From Amycolatopsis sp. FDAARGOS 1241 (lineage in GTDB: Bacteria > Actinomycetota > Actinomycetes > Mycobacteriales > Pseudonocardiaceae), in contig NZ_CP069526.1 in assembly GCF_016889705.1 (NCBI RefSeq), positions 8,150,001 to 8,214,000 on the forward strand: a stretch of DNA of 64,000 nt, written 5' to 3'. The position numbers and the translations under genes are program-made. The notes below the pieces were generated by a model. The model did not search any database, was not told where the DNA came from, and saw nothing but the letters and a program-made list of their open reading frames with translations. Below, piece by piece: positions 3,721-32,472 of this stretch. Numbering within the stretch: the first letter of the stretch is position 1; each line of letters starts with the position of its first letter.

Positions 3721-4383
3721 TCAGAAGCCGTCGCAGGAGGCGGTGGCGAACTGGCCGGTCGCGGTCGCGGTCTTCGACTCCTGGCCGTCGACGACGACCT
3801 TGCAGGTAGCGCTTCCGCCGTCGGCACCGGTCGTGACGGTGAGCGTGCCGCCCTTCAGCAGGCCCTGGGCGGTGACGTCCTTCGACCACGGCAGCTTGGC
3901 CTGTTCCTGGTTGGTGGACAGGTCGCTGCCGGACATCGTGGAGTAGGTGATCGTGGCGTCCTTCGCGGAGCCGGTCACCTCGTAGTGGACCGTGACGCTG
4001 CGGTTGGCCTCGGTGTTCAGGTCGTTGACGGCCTTGGTGGTCGTCGCGGCCCACACGATGCAGATGATCAGGCCGATCACGGACAGGACCAGGCCGGTGA
4101 TCGTGAGGCCCTTGTTCGTCGCACGGTGCTTGCGGATCCGGCCGAGCCCGACGGCGGCGAAGATGATGCCGAGGATGACCAGAGGCCAGGCGACCAGCCC
4201 GATGATCGGGATGAAGGAGAAGATCAGGCCGATCAGCCCCAGCACGAATCCGGCGGTACCGAGCCCGTTCTTCGGGGCGGGCGGCACGGGCGCGGCCTGC
4301 TGGGGGAAGGACTGCTGCGGGTAAGGCTGGCTCAAGGTTTCGTTCTGCTTTCGGTGTCGGGGTTTTCGTGGTGAAGACGGCAA
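3721..4383 (-). CDS. membrane protein with DUF4190-like and MmpS-like domains
   Basis: Membrane-anchored protein. A Pro/Gln-rich cytoplasmic N-terminus (PYPQQSFPQQ) precedes two hydrophobic hairpins: GTAGFVLGLIGLIFSFIPII and the GLTITGLVLSVIGLIICIVW region. That arrangement is DUF4190-like. The C-terminal ~100 residues resemble the extracytoplasmic domain of MmpS proteins: VTVHYEVTGSAKDATITYST, LPWSKDV, and a paired Cys near SATCKV and ASCDGF. MmpS proteins accompany MmpL exporters in mycobacteria, but no MmpL gene is nearby, so a stand-alone envelope role is more likely. The frame begins at ATG 4383; a TTG at 4335 giving MSQPYPQQ would match related N-termini and may be the real start. Confidence 0.75.
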   Translation of the reverse strand: MPSSPRKPRHRKQNETLSQPYPQQSFPQQAAPVPPAPKNGLGTAGFVLGLIGLIFSFIPIIGLVAWPLVILGIIFAAVGLGRIRKHRATNKGLTITGLVLSVIGLIICIVWAATTTKAVNDLNTEANRSVTVHYEVTGSAKDATITYSTMSGSDLSTNQEQAKLPWSKDVTAQGLLKGGTLTVTTGADGGSATCKVVVDGQESKTATATGQFATASCDGF

Positions 4384-6437: not shown

Positions 6438-7721
6438 TCATTTTCCGGCCGGCTGCGCCGAAAGGAGGAACTCCGGCAGCTGTTCGCCGGAGTACTTCCG
6501 CCGGTCGCGCCGGTCGAGCCAGCCGAGCACGGGCGAGGTCATGATCGTGGTGACCAACGCGACGAGCACCAGCACCGTGAACAACGCCGGCGACACGATC
6601 CCCGCCGCCAGCCCCACGTTCAACGCGATCAGCTGCATCAGCCCCCGAGCGTTCACGAGCACCCCGACGCGCAGCGCGATCGGCTGCGACTCCCCCACCA
6701 GCCGCGCCGCGCCCCACGACGCACCCAGCTTGCCGACCACTGCCACCACCACGCACACGACCGCGAACAGCAGCAGGTTCGGATCGGCGAGCAGCGCGAA
6801 CCGCGTGTTCAGACCGGAGTAGGTGAAGAACAGCGGCAGGAACACGACCTGCCCGAGCGGCATGATCTTCGCGAGCACCTGGTCCGCCGCCTCGCCGCGC
6901 GGGAACGCGATCCCGATCACGAACGCGCCGAACACCGCGTAGAGCCCGATGGTGTCGGTGAACCACGCCGCCGCGAAGGGGATCATCGCCGTCACGAGCA
7001 GGCGCTGGTCCACCGTCACCCGCGGGCTCTCCATCGTCTTCACCAGCACCCGCCGCACGACGAGCCACACGAGCAGCGCGAACAGCAGTCCGCCGCCGAC
7101 GGCGGTGGCGACCGGTCCCGCCGAGCCGGCGTGCAGGCCGAGCACCACGGCGAGCAGGATCCACGCCAGCACGTCGTCGAGCGCCCCGCACGCGAGCGCG
7201 AGCGATCCGAACCGCGTCGAGGCGATGCCGCGTTCGGTGATGATCCGCGTGAGCATCGGGAACGCTGTGATCGCGATCGCCACCCCGACGAACGCCGCCG
7301 ACACCACCGGCGACACCCCTGGCTTGAGGATGTCGACCCAGCCGGCGCCGAGCACGCTGACCCCGACACCCAGCGCGAGCGGCACCACCGTGCCCGCGGA
7401 GGAAACGGCGGTCACCGTCTTCACGGAGCTCTTGACCGTCGCGACGCGGAACTCGTACCCGGCGCCGAACATGTAGATCACGAGCCCGATCTGGCCGCCC
7501 AGGTACAGCAGTTTCCGCACGTCGTCGGGGAACAGCCACTCCTGCGCGTCCGGCAGCAGCAGCCCGAGCAGCGACGGCCCGAGCAGCACACCCGCCACCA
7601 TCTCCCCCACCACCGGCGGCTGGCCGAGCTTGACCGCGAGCGCGGTCACCAGCCGGACCACCGCCAGGATCACCACCACAGCCAGGAAGAACGCCGGTGC
7701 GGCTTCCGTCGCGGACATCAT
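6438..7721 (-). CDS. CPA2-type cation/proton antiporter (Kef-like)
   Basis: Integral membrane exchanger with about 12-13 hydrophobic segments, the last gene of a four-gene operon. Family features include GQPPVVGEMVAGVLLGPSLLG near the N-terminus, the central ALACGALDDVLAWILLA segment with its paired Asp residues, and FAAAWFTDTIGLYAVFGAFV. It lacks the cytoplasmic TrkA-N domain of full Kef channels. Two adjacent ATGs (7721 and 7718) overlap the P450 stop; either could start. Antiporters of this family sit beside several actinomycete natural-product clusters, where they are thought to serve export or resistance. That role here is inference from context. Confidence 0.88.
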   Translation of the reverse strand: MMSATEAAPAFFLAVVVILAVVRLVTALAVKLGQPPVVGEMVAGVLLGPSLLGLLLPDAQEWLFPDDVRKLLYLGGQIGLVIYMFGAGYEFRVATVKSSVKTVTAVSSAGTVVPLALGVGVSVLGAGWVDILKPGVSPVVSAAFVGVAIAITAFPMLTRIITERGIASTRFGSLALACGALDDVLAWILLAVVLGLHAGSAGPVATAVGGGLLFALLVWLVVRRVLVKTMESPRVTVDQRLLVTAMIPFAAAWFTDTIGLYAVFGAFVIGIAFPRGEAADQVLAKIMPLGQVVFLPLFFTYSGLNTRFALLADPNLLLFAVVCVVVAVVGKLGASWGAARLVGESQPIALRVGVLVNARGLMQLIALNVGLAAGIVSPALFTVLVLVALVTTIMTSPVLGWLDRRDRRKYSGEQLPEFLLSAQPAGK

Positions 7722-9066
7722 TCGCCTCCGTGATTCGCGAAGTATGCGACGCACAAGCGTTTCCGCCGCGCGTCGAGCACCATGTACGTGCCGAACACGA
7801 GCTGGGCCAGGCTCCGCCACACGTCCTCCCACCGGTCGCGCACGGCGAGGTACGCGAGGGTGCCGCGTGTCGACCGAGTCGAACCGCGCGGGGTGAGGAA
7901 AACGGGGCCGCGGTTGGGGATCGAGCGGGTGTGCGCAGCCGACGACGACACCGCGAAGCGGCGCAGGAACTCCCGCGTCACCACCCGCATCGTGATCGGC
8001 GCGAGCCCGCGGGCCGGGCACGCGCGGTTCTGTGTGACGCCGAACGGCAGGAAGTTCACGTCCTTCTTCAGGGGCGCTGCGTGGACTGGGCACCCCGTGG
8101 GCGGCTCCCAGCGCGACGGGTCGAACTCCTCGGGCCGCTCGAACCCGGCGTGGTGGAAATCGGGATAGCTGAACAGCAGCACGGTGCCGGCGTCGATCTT
8201 CTTGTCGTCGAGCTCGATGTCGGCGGTCGTGATGCGGTGCGCGATGCCGAACAGCGGGTACGTGCGCAACCCTTCGTCGATCACGCGGTCCAGGTACGCG
8301 TCGTCGTACGGGTTCTCGACGAGCCGCCGCTGCACGTCCGGGTGCTGCGCGATGATCATCAGCAGGTGGGCCATCGCCTCGGACATCTGCACCACGGCCG
8401 TGTTGAAGAACGTGCCTTGCAGGTAGAACACCTGCTCCTGGGGCGAAAGCCTTGACGGCAACGCGTGCGGCACGTCGGCGAGGCGCCGCCGCAGGTACTG
8501 GGTGAGCTTCGCGCGGCGGCGCATGTTCCGCGGCCGCACGCACTTCAGCGCCGAGACGACGTCGTCGGCGTGGCCGACGATGAGGTCGCGCGCCTCGGGC
8601 GGGCACGGTTCGCCGAACACGAGCTCGTAGTACAGCTCGGCCCAGATCGGCATCATCTCGTCGCGCAGCCGGATCAACCGGCCCTCCCCGACCTCCAGCT
8701 CGTCGAGCACGTGCGCCGCGACGCGCCGGGTCAGCTCTTCCGACTCCGCGCGCGGTTTCACGAGGATGTGCCGCGTGGTCTTGGCGACCTCGTCGTAGCG
8801 CGGGCCGGCTTCGAGGTGCTCCTGGTGCACTTCGGGGCCGGGCGCGAGCCAGTACCAGAACAGGTCCGACAGCGCCGCGCCCTTGCTGCGCCCCATCGCC
8901 GCCGGGTCGGCGTAGAGGCGGCGGAAGTCCTCGACCGGCACCGGCAGGCCTTCGTCGCCGTTGACCATCGCGAAGATCGTCACCCGCAGCGCGACCACCC
9001 GGCCGGGCAGCCACTTCGGCAGGGACCCGACGAGCGCGGCGGCCAGCGCGGCCGGCAGCAGGCGCC

Positions 9067-9070
<4 letters not shown>
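7718..9070 (-). CDS. atypical cytochrome P450
   Basis: Heme-thiolate protein, 450 aa from ATG 9070, chosen because it overlaps the upstream stop by four bases. The heme loop FLPFGVTQNRACPARG carries ligand Cys351, and the K-helix ExxR is E266-R269. The I-helix, normally AGxET or AGxDT, reads QGTFFNTAVVQ (about 218-228), so the conserved acid-alcohol pair is replaced by Phe-Asn. The N-terminus has an Ala/Leu-rich stretch (about 4-17). A C-terminal extension of ~60 residues follows the usual end of the fold. Loss of the acid-alcohol pair is seen in P450s that do not activate O2 conventionally, such as peroxygenases, isomerases and dehydratases. Substrate unknown. Confidence 0.88.
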
Positions 9071-10092
<1,022 letters not shown>

Positions 10093-10094
10093 GG

Positions 10095-11651
10095 TCAGGC
10101 CAGCTGCCGGCTGACGAACTCCGTGAGCGCCTCCACGTGCACGGGCCGGTTCCACTCGTTCTCGAGGTTCTCCGTCACGTGGTGCGTGGCGACGAGCTCA
10201 CCGCGCCGGTAGTGCCGGACGATCGGGTGCAGGTAGTGGCCCTCGCCGCTGTCGTTGGCGACGTCCTGGCTCGCGCGCTTCACCGTGAAGTCGAAGGGGT
10301 CGACCTTGTCGTGGTCCGGCCCGTAGTCGAGGGTGATCAGGAACGCGTGCTCGGCCTCGCTGAGCGGGGTGTCGGCGAAGCGGTCCACCGGCACCTCTTC
10401 GAGGTAGCGCGCCTGGTCACCGTCGACGGTCAGCACGTCGGCGAGGAACCCGAACTGCTGGAACAGCCCGGACGTCCGGTTGATCCGCCGGAGCACGGCG
10501 TCGACGAGGTCGGCGGTCTCGGCCTTCAGCACGGTCTGCGGCCACTCACGGTCGTGGTAGCGCTCGTCGAGCACCTTCGACAGGGCGCGCACGCCGTAGC
10601 GGAAGCCGTGGATGAACGCGCTGGTGGCCTTCTTGAAGTCGCGTGCCTGCGTGATGGTGCCGGCGAAGTAGAGATCGGGCACGTTCACCGACTCCCACGA
10701 CGACGTCTGCGCCGGGAAGCGGCCGTTGATCGTGAGCTCCGGCCGGCAGTCCTCGTCGAACAGTGACGCGTCGAAGCGGAAACCGGTGGCGGCGACCACG
10801 TAGTCGTAGCGCAGTTCCTTCACGATTTCGTCGGCGCGGGCGAAGGCGAACTTCACGTGGTAGCCGTCTTCGTCCTTGCGGATCTCGCGCACGTCGCCGT
10901 CGAGGATCGCGTGCTGCAGCTTGAGCTGGTACATGTCGAGCACACCCGCGTTGTACGCGCGCAGGTGACCGACGAAGTGCGTGCGCCAGGCCAGCTTCAC
11001 CGGCCGCGGGCCCGCGACGTGCAGCACAGCGGCGTACGCGTTGACACTGTCGGCCGTCTCGAACGCCGAGTTGCCCTTGCCCAGCACGAGCACGCGCTTG
11101 TTGGTGAACCGCGCCGGGTCGGTGTCGAAGTCGGCGTACTGCTCGACCAGCTCCATGCCGGGAACGTCGGGGATGTACGGCTTGCTCACGCCCGTCGCCA
11201 TCACGAGCCGCCGCGTGGTGAAGGTGTTCCCGTGGCTGTCCGTGGCGGTGAAGAGAGCGCTTTTCGGATCACGGCTGATCCGCGTCACCCGGGTGCCGTA
11301 GCGGATGGCGACACCGTGCTTCGCCGCGTAGTCGGCGGTGTAGCGCAGGAACGCGTCAGCGGGCGGGAACAGCTCCGCGCTGTAGTCGGTGAACAACACG
11401 GGATCGGGGCCGTCGTCGAGCAGGGAGTTCCAGTCGACGCGCAGGTTCAGCTCCGGGTCGGTCCAGCCCGTGTGCTTCTTGTTGACCGAGATCAGCGTGC
11501 GGTGGCGCGGGAACCGTGTGAAGAACGTGGCCGGCACGCTGCCGGCTTCCAGTACGAGGTAGCGGTGACCCGCCTGTTCGAGCTGCCGGCCGAGCTGCAG
11601 GCCCGCGGGCCCCGCACCGACCACCAGATAGTCCAGAACGTCGTCAACCAC
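10095..11651 (-). CDS. FAD-dependent monooxygenase-like oxidoreductase
   Basis: Flavoprotein of the FMO/BVMO-like class, 518 aa, with two dinucleotide-binding folds: GAGPAGLQLGRQLEQAG (FAD, residues 12-28) and LVLGKGNSAFETAD (NADPH, near residue 190). VVAATGFRFD and NVPDLYFAGTITQ are the usual FAD-contact strands. The extended C-terminus and the HRTLISVNKKHTGW segment recall the FOXRED2-like branch more than classic FMOs. GTG 11651 is preceded by GGAGG at a good distance. It opens the operon that continues into the hydroxyacid oxidase, P450 and antiporter genes. Substrate unknown. Confidence 0.85.
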   Translation of the reverse strand: MVDDVLDYLVVGAGPAGLQLGRQLEQAGHRYLVLEAGSVPATFFTRFPRHRTLISVNKKHTGWTDPELNLRVDWNSLLDDGPDPVLFTDYSAELFPPADAFLRYTADYAAKHGVAIRYGTRVTRISRDPKSALFTATDSHGNTFTTRRLVMATGVSKPYIPDVPGMELVEQYADFDTDPARFTNKRVLVLGKGNSAFETADSVNAYAAVLHVAGPRPVKLAWRTHFVGHLRAYNAGVLDMYQLKLQHAILDGDVREIRKDEDGYHVKFAFARADEIVKELRYDYVVAATGFRFDASLFDEDCRPELTINGRFPAQTSSWESVNVPDLYFAGTITQARDFKKATSAFIHGFRYGVRALSKVLDERYHDREWPQTVLKAETADLVDAVLRRINRTSGLFQQFGFLADVLTVDGDQARYLEEVPVDRFADTPLSEAEHAFLITLDYGPDHDKVDPFDFTVKRASQDVANDSGEGHYLHPIVRHYRRGELVATHHVTENLENEWNRPVHVEALTEFVSRQLA

Positions 11652-11805: not shown

Positions 11806-12807
<1,002 letters not shown>

Positions 12808-12818
12808 GAGCTCCCCCG

Positions 12819-13799
12819 TCACTTGCCGGCCGCGCGGGCGAGCCGCTCGGGGTAGCGCGCCCCAGCGACAGCGTCCTTCGGCGAGGCCGCTTCGATCGCG
12901 GCGATGTCCTCTTCGGACAGTTCGAGCTGCGCGGCCGCGAGGTTCTCCTCGAGGTACTTGCGCCGCTTCGTCCCCGGGATCGGCACGACGTCCGCGCCCT
13001 TGGCCTGCACCCACGCGAGGGCCAGCTGCCCGGCGGTCACGCCCTTCGTTTCGGCGAGCGCTCGCAGCGCGTCGACGATCGCCAGGTTGCGCTCGAAGTT
13101 CCCCTCCTCGAACCGCGGCATCCCGCGGCGCAGGTCGTCCTCGGGCAGGTCCTTCACCGACGTCACCGAGCCCGTGAGCAGGCCACGGCCGAGCGGCGAG
13201 AACGGCACCAGGCCGATGCCGAGCTCCCGGCAGGTGCCGAGAACCTCGTCCTCGATGCCGCGCGTCCACAGCGACCACTCGCTCTGCAGCGCCGTCACCG
13301 GGTGCACGGCGTGGGCGCGGCGGATGGTCTCGGCGCTCGCCTCCGAAATCCCGGCGTACCGGATCTTCCCGGCCTGCACGAGCTCGGCCAGCGCGCCCCA
13401 CGTCTCCTCGACGGGGACGTTCGGGTCCACGCGGTGCTGGTAGTAGAGGTCGATGTGGTCCACGCCGAGCCGGTGCAGCGACTCGTCGCAGCACTGCTTC
13501 ACGTACGCCGCGTCGCCGCGCGCGCCCATGCCCTCATCAGTCCACACGATGCCGAACTTCGTGGCCAGCACGACCTGGTCGCGGCGGTCGGCGATCGCGC
13601 GGCCGACCAGCTTCTCGTTCTCCCCCGATCCGTACACGTTGGCCGTGTCGAGCAGGGTCACCCCCAGCTCCAGCGCCCGGTGGATGGTCGCGACGGACTC
13701 GTTGTCGTCGTCGCGCACCCCGTAGGCCTGGCTCATCCCCATGCAGCCGAGCCCCTGGGCACCGACTGCCAGTTCACCGAGTTTCCTCGTACCGATCAC
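12819..13799 (-). CDS. aldo/keto reductase (copy B)
   Basis: Second NADPH-dependent aldo/keto reductase, 326 aa. The tetrad residues are visible in [30 protein letters not shown] and [12 protein letters not shown]; the NADP loop is [19 protein letters not shown]. It starts at GTG 13799, overlapping the merR-type gene stop by four bases, so regulator and enzyme are translated together. Likely roles are detoxification of reactive carbonyls or quinone-like compounds; the physiological substrate is not evident. Confidence 0.92.
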
Positions 13800-14197
13800 G
13801 CGGAGATCTCCTCCATGGCGGGCGCGTGGCCGTGCAGCTTGCGCTCCACCTGGTCGTAGTTGTCGATCTTGTAGTCGAGCACGTCGAGGCAGGCCTGCAA
13901 CTCGGTGATCCGGTCGGCCACCGACTGCCGCTGCTCGACGAGGATCGCCTTGCGGCGCCCGGCGCTCGCGACGCCGTGGCGGCGCAGGGCGGCGTACTCC
14001 CGCATGCTCTTGATGGGCATGCCGGTGAGCCGCAGCTTGGTGAGGAACCCGAGCCAGGTGAGGTCGTCGTCGGAGTACGCGCGCCGTCCCGCCGCGTCAC
14101 GGGCCGGCGGTTCGAGCAGCTTGATCCGCTCGTAGTACCGAAGGGTGTCGATCGACAGGCCGCTACGTCGTGCGGCTTCCGCTATCGAGTAGCTCAT
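13796..14197 (-). CDS. MerR-family transcriptional regulator
   Basis: MerR-type activator/repressor, 133 aa. The N-terminal winged helix [29 protein letters not shown] is canonical and is followed by a long coiled-coil dimerisation helix (about 80-120). No conserved metal-binding cysteines are present, so an organic ligand or redox-stress signal is more likely than a metal. It is the first gene of the operon with two aldo/keto reductases, and the promoter upstream has a perfect MerR-type operator, so it very probably controls itself and them. Confidence 0.93.
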
Positions 14198-31266: not shown

Positions 31267-32472
31267 ATGACCACAGCCGGCGAGCTCGAGCTGCCGGTGG
31301 CGCGCAAGTGCCCGTTCGCACCGCCCGAGGAGTACACGCAGATCCGCGAGGAACAGCCGATCACGCGCGTGCGGATCCCCGACGGCAAACAGGCCTGGGT
31401 CGTTTCGCGGCACGAGGACGTGCGGACGGTGCTCAACGACCGCCGCTTCTCCTCTGACCGCTTCAACGAGAACTTCCCCGTGCTCGTCAAGGGCGGCAAC
31501 GTGTTCCGGCGGTCCGACGCCGAGCGCACGATGATCACGATGGACGCGCCCGAACACGGTCCGGCGCGCAAGGCCGTGCTGGGCGAGTTCACCGTCAAGC
31601 GCGTCACGGCGATGCGGCCGCGGATCCAGGAGATCGTCGACGGGCTGATCGACGACATCCTGGCCGCCGAACAGCCGGTCGACCTCGTCGAGATGCTGTC
31701 GCTGCCGGTGCCCTCGCTCGTGATCTGCGAACTGCTGGGCGTGCCGTACGAGGACCACGGCTTCTTCCAGGAGAACACGGCGAAGCTGCTCAAGCGCACG
31801 GTCGGGTTCGAGGACCGGCAGGCGGCGTTCGAGCGCGTGCGCGGTTACCTCGACCGGCTCGTCACGGCCAAGGAAGCCGAACCGGGTGACGACCTGCTCG
31901 GCCGCCAGATCGTGAAGCTGCGCGAAGAGGGGACGTATGACCACCGCGCCGTGGTGGGGCTGGCGTTCCTGCTGCTCGTCGCCGGCCACGAGACCACGGC
32001 GAACATGATCTCGCTGGGCACGGTCGGCCTGCTGGAGAACCCCGACCAGCTCGCAGCGATCAAGGCCGACCCCGGCAAGACGCTCGACGCCGTCGAGGAA
32101 CTGCTGCGCTACTTCACGATCGTCGACACGGCCACCGCGCGCGTCGCGGTGGCGGACGTCGAGATCGGCGGCGTCACCATCCGGGCAGGAGACGGCGTGC
32201 TCGCGCTCGGTTACACCGCCAACTGGGACCCCGCGGTGTTCGACGAACCGGAGAAGCTGGACCTCACGCGCAGGGCGCGCCACCACGTGGCGTTCGGGTT
32301 CGGGCCGCACCAGTGCTTGGGCCAGAACCTCGCGCGCACCGAACTGCAGATCGTGTTCGACACGCTGTTCCGCCGCATCCCCACGCTCAAGCTCGCCGTG
32401 GACGTCGACGACCTGCCCTTCAAGGAAGACGCGTCGATCTACGGCCTGTACCGGCTGCCGGTGAGCTGGTGA
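31267..32472 (+). CDS. cytochrome P450, tandem copy 3
   Basis: P450 of 401 aa with AGHETT near residue 240 and the same heme loop FGFGPHQCLGQNLAR (Cys near 350). It shares most residues with copy 2 in the N-terminal and C-terminal parts and differs mainly in the F-G helices (KLLKRTVGFEDRQAAF) and the beta strands near VDTATARVAVADVEIGG. The start ATG follows GGAGGAG. It is followed after 47 bases by the ferredoxin gene that probably serves all three enzymes. Confidence 0.95.
   Translation: MTTAGELELPVARKCPFAPPEEYTQIREEQPITRVRIPDGKQAWVVSRHEDVRTVLNDRRFSSDRFNENFPVLVKGGNVFRRSDAERTMITMDAPEHGPARKAVLGEFTVKRVTAMRPRIQEIVDGLIDDILAAEQPVDLVEMLSLPVPSLVICELLGVPYEDHGFFQENTAKLLKRTVGFEDRQAAFERVRGYLDRLVTAKEAEPGDDLLGRQIVKLREEGTYDHRAVVGLAFLLLVAGHETTANMISLGTVGLLENPDQLAAIKADPGKTLDAVEELLRYFTIVDTATARVAVADVEIGGVTIRAGDGVLALGYTANWDPAVFDEPEKLDLTRRARHHVAFGFGPHQCLGQNLARTELQIVFDTLFRRIPTLKLAVDVDDLPFKEDASIYGLYRLPVSW

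Follow-up and report, generated by a model that had tools for sequence, protein, structure and literature searches.

Four genes that overlap or nearly touch in the genome of Amycolatopsis sp. FDAARGOS 1241 encode two flavoenzymes, a cytochrome P450 and a cation antiporter. The question raised by this locus is whether such an oxidation and transport set makes up a pathway, and of which kind. The window analysed measures 64,000 nucleotides and corresponds to positions 8150001-8214000 of the 9.8-Mb genome (G000:C1:8150001-8214000). Six of its genes are central to the analysis.

10095 to 11651, minus strand: FMO-like flavoprotein (FMO), first gene; 518 aa, GTG start at 11651, stop ending at 10095
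9067 to 10092, minus strand: FMN-dependent 2-hydroxyacid oxidase family protein (HAO); 341 aa from GTG at 10092; PF01070
7718 to 9070, minus strand: cytochrome P450 without the usual acid-alcohol pair; 450 aa, ATG at 9070; PF00067
6438 to 7721, minus strand: CPA2-type cation/proton antiporter; 427 aa, ATG at 7721; PF00999
5703 to 6380, minus strand: OmpR-type response regulator; PF00072 and PF00486
4531 to 5706, minus strand: sensor histidine kinase; PF00512 and PF02518

Layout and distribution of the operon

As read from the sequence, the FMO and HAO genes are separated by 2 nt, and the HAO and P450 genes, as the P450 and antiporter genes, overlap by 4 nt. The overlaps suggest that the products of the four genes are translated as one coupled unit. 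The response regulator gene lies 57 nt downstream of the antiporter gene, and is overlapped by 4 nt by the histidine kinase gene. No terminator-like site was found on the minus strand in the 57-nt gap by a terminator scan, and the unit, extended by the two regulatory genes, spans positions 11651-4531 of the minus strand. The original prediction of four coupled genes was right as to gaps and protein families, which sequence reading and Pfam confirm, but set the end of the unit too early, before the two-component genes. The FMO-like protein matches PF13738/PF07992 in Pfam, and its closest database relatives, among the 120 listed of 4021 matches, are found in Amycolatopsis (best identity 91%).

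Other genes mark the surroundings. Upstream of the FMO gene, in the same orientation, a tandem aldo/keto reductase pair (~71% identical) is preceded by a MerR-type regulator (11806-13799 and 13796-14197, both minus strand); aldo/keto reductase homologues are found upstream in most Amycolatopsis loci too. A membrane-type protein is encoded 147 nt downstream of the kinase gene (3721-4383, minus strand), and matches Mycobact_memb above and DUF4190 below the cutoff. A second, unrelated-looking P450 gene resides at 31267-32472 (plus strand), followed by a methyltransferase gene on the other strand.

A scan of named genomes with a P450 profile identified 366 stretches encoding relatives, the best 80 of which were kept as locus set. 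Certain species contribute more than one of the 80 loci, and some genomes are common to the sets L076-L095 and L107-L186. Architectures were defined by tblastn labels; ORFs were picked by a simple GC-frame method, which calls some antisense ORFs. The FMO, HAO and P450 genes are contiguous and co-directional in 73 of the 80 loci. HAO is found directly upstream of P450 in 77, and FMO takes the same place, HAO being missing, in 3. The antiporter gene comes next after P450 in 62 loci, and homologues of the response regulator and of the histidine kinase are found in 63 and 61, respectively. Sixty-three loci are not labelled Amycolatopsis; the antiporter comes next in 46 of them, 45 feature both regulators, and 35 the ligase described below. 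The antiporter slot is occupied by a MFS protein in L135 and L185, and by a DUF6282 protein in L134. Operon copies in L089 and L093 have genes in pieces, which denote either broken genes or draft-assembly errors, and the neighbourhood of L153 is common with Kibdelosporangium loci.

The order FMO, HAO, P450 was also found, in 1.5-kb flanks, in all 29 Amycolatopsis loci inspected outside the own genome, which are the best 29 of 40 FMO matches. In all, 41 FMO matches were found in 39 of 100 relatives, own genome included. In a class-wide sample of 394 genomes, which spans several families and in which only 3-4 candidates per genome were scored, FMO (E<=1e-100) was found in 18 and P450 (E<=1e-30) in 13, all within the 18. 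More distant FMO relatives (43-45% identity), found in genomes with no P450 (5 of the 18 FMO-positive genomes of the class, plus G069 and G094), look like another family; in the one such context inspected, L094, FMO was the only operon gene present.

The original prediction would have been refuted by genes that are merely scattered in relatives; the order kept in 73 of the 80 loci speaks against such a refutation. An order limited to close relatives was also considered and rejected, the set being carried by many actinobacterial genera, including Nonomuraea, Actinomadura, Microbispora, Kibdelosporangium, Kutzneria, Nocardia and Catenulispora, as by Paraburkholderia acidicola, an isolate from another phylum identified in the P450-profile scan. 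Bins assigned to Ca. Sulfopaludibacter and Melainabacteria also carry the operon, and may be misbinned. One unannotated Nonomuraea record was found in the plasmid collection. Judging from taxonomy, the operon family has probably spread horizontally.

Conserved residues of the encoded proteins

The P450 (PF00067, 86.3 bits in Pfam) features the heme-ligand Cys351 in 96/96 loci read. In the ExxR motif, R269 is conserved in 96/97 loci, the Glu position being occupied by E266 in 82/97, by D in 14 and by Q in 1. The acid-alcohol pair in the I-helix is the usual oxygen-activating motif; Val227 and Gln228 are found in its place in 97/97 loci read. Gln228 aligns with the first Thr of the ETT motif in CYP3A4 (6ma7), and Val227 falls on the Glu by ungapped extension. 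As judged from these alignments, the enzyme is a P450 lacking the canonical oxygen-activating residue pair. In the structural model (mean pLDDT 79.7), residues 210-242 form a single I-helix, and a long helix (402-437) extends past the core; a Foldseek search with the P450 returned general P450 matches only.

HAO matches PF01070 (FMN_dh, 410.6 bits), and its nearest PDB relatives are lactate and glycolate oxidases. When aligned to glycolate oxidase, the active-site residues Lys217, His241 and Arg244 (numbering of the 342-residue translation) are conserved in 94/94 loci read. Two further positions are denoted by the glycolate oxidase numbering, Trp108 and Tyr24, the latter being carboxylate-binding in that enzyme. 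Met mostly occupies the Trp108 position. At the Tyr24 position the own protein has Phe, and among 92 loci 75 have Tyr and 17 have Phe; Phe was tried as an Amycolatopsis marker and rejected, being scattered over genera.

The FMO model displays a two-dinucleotide fold over residues 3-366. The His of the FxGxxxHxxxY motif, the class B flavin monooxygenase fingerprint, was not found between the two Rossmann motifs in any of 20 aligned sequences inspected by reading. The antiporter scores above cutoff with PF00999 (Na_H_Exchanger, 178 bits) and below it with TIGR00932 (130.7 of 238.3), and the ion-binding pair Asp182-Asp183 is conserved in 71/71 loci read.

A co-inherited ligase and optional partners

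In 35 of the 80 loci an AMP-forming ligase (over 45% identity) is encoded together with the operon, and in many it precedes FMO. In Amycolatopsis sp. FDAARGOS 1241 a 50% identical copy is found at G000:C1:6880184-6881629, ~1.27 Mb from the operon, and scores 439 bits vs 163 bits for the next ligase. Among the 100 relatives (own genome included; ligase cutoff E<=1e-80), 34 carry both ligase and FMO, 5 FMO only (G002, G006, G015, G069, G094), none ligase only, and 61 neither. Ligase is thus present in 34/39 FMO-positive and 0/61 FMO-negative relatives (Fisher p ~1e-21, uncorrected for shared ancestry). Within the genus the corresponding figures are 31, 3, 0 and 26 (p ~5e-14, again uncorrected for shared ancestry), and 3 Amycolatopsis have the trio without the ligase. 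Ligase and operon are still linked in one of the 100 relatives, G004. In the class-wide sample, a ligase at >=50% identity was found in 12/394 genomes, all among the 13 P450-positive ones, and in 0/381 others; the thirteenth P450-positive genome, G105, carries a ligase fragment at a contig edge, and its operon resides on a short contig. Four matches at 40-42% identity in P450-negative genomes (3 candidates per genome scored) look like another subfamily.

Twenty-five genomes, corresponding to loci picked mainly for having no linked ligase, were searched at E<=1e-60. Fifteen matched, 8 having unlinked copies at >=50% identity, 2 linked copies (L183, L184), and 5 copies at 34-42% only; 10/25 gave no ligase match at this cutoff. 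In terms of sequence, the ligase is a specific, frequent but not obligatory partner of the operon, and lies beside it in other genera but elsewhere in the genome in nearly all Amycolatopsis. No clear partner gene was found beside the unlinked ligase when 1.5-kb flanks of 30 of the 34 matches were compared.

The ligase features the PF00501 and PF13193 domains (ANL). Its best PDB matches are 6sq8 (E 6e-61) and 6h1b (6e-60), structures of the McbA amide bond synthetase; other PDB relatives are acyl-CoA synthetases and the feruloyl-CoA synthetase 8wev. McbA, involved in marinacarboline biosynthesis, adenylates aryl acids and couples them to amines with no carrier protein; together with ShABS it represents the closest known system for the ligase (PMC6282839, PMC10804368).

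Some loci feature additional enzymes. An aromatic ammonia-lyase-like enzyme was identified in 3 of the 80 loci. In the class-wide sample, it is found at >=75% identity in 6/394 genomes, all P450-positive; relatives in P450-negative genomes are two at 60-61% and one at 42% identity. The lyase is accompanied by a second FMO and by a ligase, at a separate locus in two genomes (L080, L084). The lyase/second FMO/ligase module has been observed both apart from the main operon (L080, L084) and fused to it (L172, L173, L181). The L080 lyase has a His-Leu pair when aligned with 2o6y and the mutant 2o78; the 2o6y pair is the H89-L90 selectivity pair of RsTAL. All 8 curated lyase models in NCBIfam score below cutoff, the histidine ammonia-lyase models being the highest. 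Tyrosine as the lyase substrate may at best be guessed from sequence. A lyase orthologue in the own genome was sought and rejected, the best match being 37% identical.

In 23 of the 35 ligase loci, a PF17784 sulfotransferase gene lies no more than 200 nt from the ligase gene. In Spongiactinospora rosea a sulfotransferase gene is found between HAO and P450 (L186:9291-9911, plus strand). No sulfotransferase match was found in the own genome at E<=1e-30. The gene is present in 6/100 relatives, only 3 of which are FMO-positive (G004, G063, G090); in contrast to the ligase, therefore, the sulfotransferase does not track the operon in this group.

These data bear on two statements of the original prediction, the absence of a biosynthetic core gene nearby and the completeness of the four-gene set. 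The former holds locally: 53 ORFs were picked in the window, and a Pfam scan of 38 window proteins revealed no classical core enzyme such as a NRPS, a PKS or a terpene synthase. It does not hold for the genome, where a co-inherited ligase resides 1.27 Mb away. The set can hardly be called complete: a ligase nearest to McbA is in the locus in 35/80 cases and co-occurs unlinked in Amycolatopsis, most loci carry a two-component system, and genes for a lyase, a second FMO or a sulfotransferase are found in some. Co-occurrence can reveal a missing core gene, and the unlinked ligase would depict a pathway whose genes are separated in one genus but still adjacent in others.

Probable biosynthesis, alternatives, and known systems

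With moderate confidence, the operon may be regarded as representing, in Amycolatopsis, a family of clusters for small-molecule biosynthesis which is undescribed and has probably spread horizontally. As far as sequences indicate, the family comprises the oxidative trio FMO-HAO-P450, an adjacent transporter (a CPA2 antiporter or, in at least two loci, a MFS protein), a co-inherited ligase and, in most loci, a two-component system. The trio would oxidise a small acid: HAO would yield a 2-oxo acid from a 2-hydroxy acid, and oxygen or bonds would be added or rearranged by FMO and P450. Adenylation of a carboxylate by the ligase would be followed by coupling to CoA or, as with McbA, to an amine. 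The transporter may export the product or restore an ion balance disturbed by it, and the two-component system may sense the product or the ion-balance stress. In a few lineages the acid may be p-coumarate-like, and come from the aromatic ammonia-lyase encoded beside the second FMO and the ligase; in other lineages a sulfotransferase is added. Genes of biosynthetic type are added, and transporters switched, around a fixed core, which is consistent with biosynthesis and export. A point against biosynthesis is that the ligase is not obligatory, as 10 of the 25 genomes tested gave no match, and 5 more a match at 34-42% only; the absence of HAO from L129, L163 and L180 is another.

The families assigned originally to the oxidation and transport set are those found by Pfam, and the antiporter indeed follows P450 in 62/80 loci. 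The view that the combination is not a described pathway also agrees with the literature, as no description of a FMO-HAO-P450-antiporter operon or mechanism was found in open-licence PMC text. The unit is found in many actinobacterial genera (366 P450 relatives in one scan), yet no description of it was found, and it would probably escape tools that rely on classical core genes.

A sub-mechanism compatible with biosynthesis, which is unlikely as it stands, is a peroxide loop, in which the P450, devoid of the acid-alcohol pair, would be driven by hydrogen peroxide released by HAO upon oxidation of a 2-hydroxy acid. The replacement of the pair by Val227/Gln228 in 97/97 loci, the position of HAO directly upstream of P450 in 77/80, the invariant HAO catalytic residues and the oxidases found as nearest PDB relatives of HAO are all consistent with it. 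On the other hand, HAO could be a dehydrogenase, the residues differ from the Arg-Pro which CYP152 peroxygenases have at the acid-alcohol position, and three Nonomuraea loci keep P450 without HAO; HAO is also missing elsewhere in two of these three genomes (E<=1e-40), and the third has a 49% copy only. Moreover, ApyO, the closest named P450 model albeit a far relative (64.9 of 525 bits), makes a biaryl bond according to PMC11117315, so that cross-coupling is just as possible. That the pair is invariably lost leads to a testable question, namely how the P450 works, and whether peroxide comes from the operon neighbour.

Quite unlikely, and less likely than biosynthesis, is the notion that the operon degrades or detoxifies a soil aromatic or hydroxy acid. 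In this case the ligase would produce a CoA thioester, the antiporter would counter acid stress and the two-component system would sense the compound. Ligase relatives include the feruloyl-CoA synthetase 8wev, adenylate-forming ligases serve catabolism too, catabolic pathways often include members of the HAO and FMO families, and antiporter and two-component system would fit a stress response. However, the labelled or clustered neighbours, part of which were scanned for families, yielded no gene for a ring-cleavage enzyme, a thiolase or a hydratase; lyase and sulfotransferase are added in some loci; and the nearest ligase structure is that of McbA.

The broadest formulation of the peroxide loop, a widespread cluster type without classical core in which a P450 fed with peroxide by HAO acts along with FMO and an ATP-dependent ligase co-inherited even when unlinked, is also unlikely; if true, it would represent a natural, genetically coupled peroxide loop. 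An accidental gene order is practically out of the question: HAO is absent from L129, L163 and L180, FMO is not beside HAO in L134 and L171, and P450 is on the opposite strand in L088 and L089, but 73/80 loci are contiguous and co-directional, and 13/13 P450-positive genomes are FMO-positive.

The biosynthetic reading may finally be set against known systems. The ligase, distant from the operon in this genome, is an ANL enzyme as McbA, with 6sq8 and 6h1b as best matches, and may have a McbA-type activity; the matches also include acyl-CoA and feruloyl-CoA synthetases. HAO belongs to the same family (PF01070) as glycolate, lactate and 4-hydroxymandelate oxidases, and keeps the Lys, His and Arg residues, but differs from glycolate oxidase in having Met at the Trp108 position and, in the own protein, Phe at the Tyr24 position, which is Tyr in most loci. 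FMO shares the two-dinucleotide fold with class B flavin monooxygenases and YpdA-type reductases, at ~20% identity. As CYP3A4, CYP184A1 and ApyO, the P450 has the heme-binding Cys, the ExxR motif and, in the model, the P450 fold. It differs from CYP3A4 in the Val-Gln found in place of the acid-alcohol pair and in one extra residue in the heme loop, from CYP152 in having Val-Gln rather than Arg-Pro (97/97 loci; NCBIfam CypC, 19.2 of 600 bits), and from known P450s in the long C-terminal helix.
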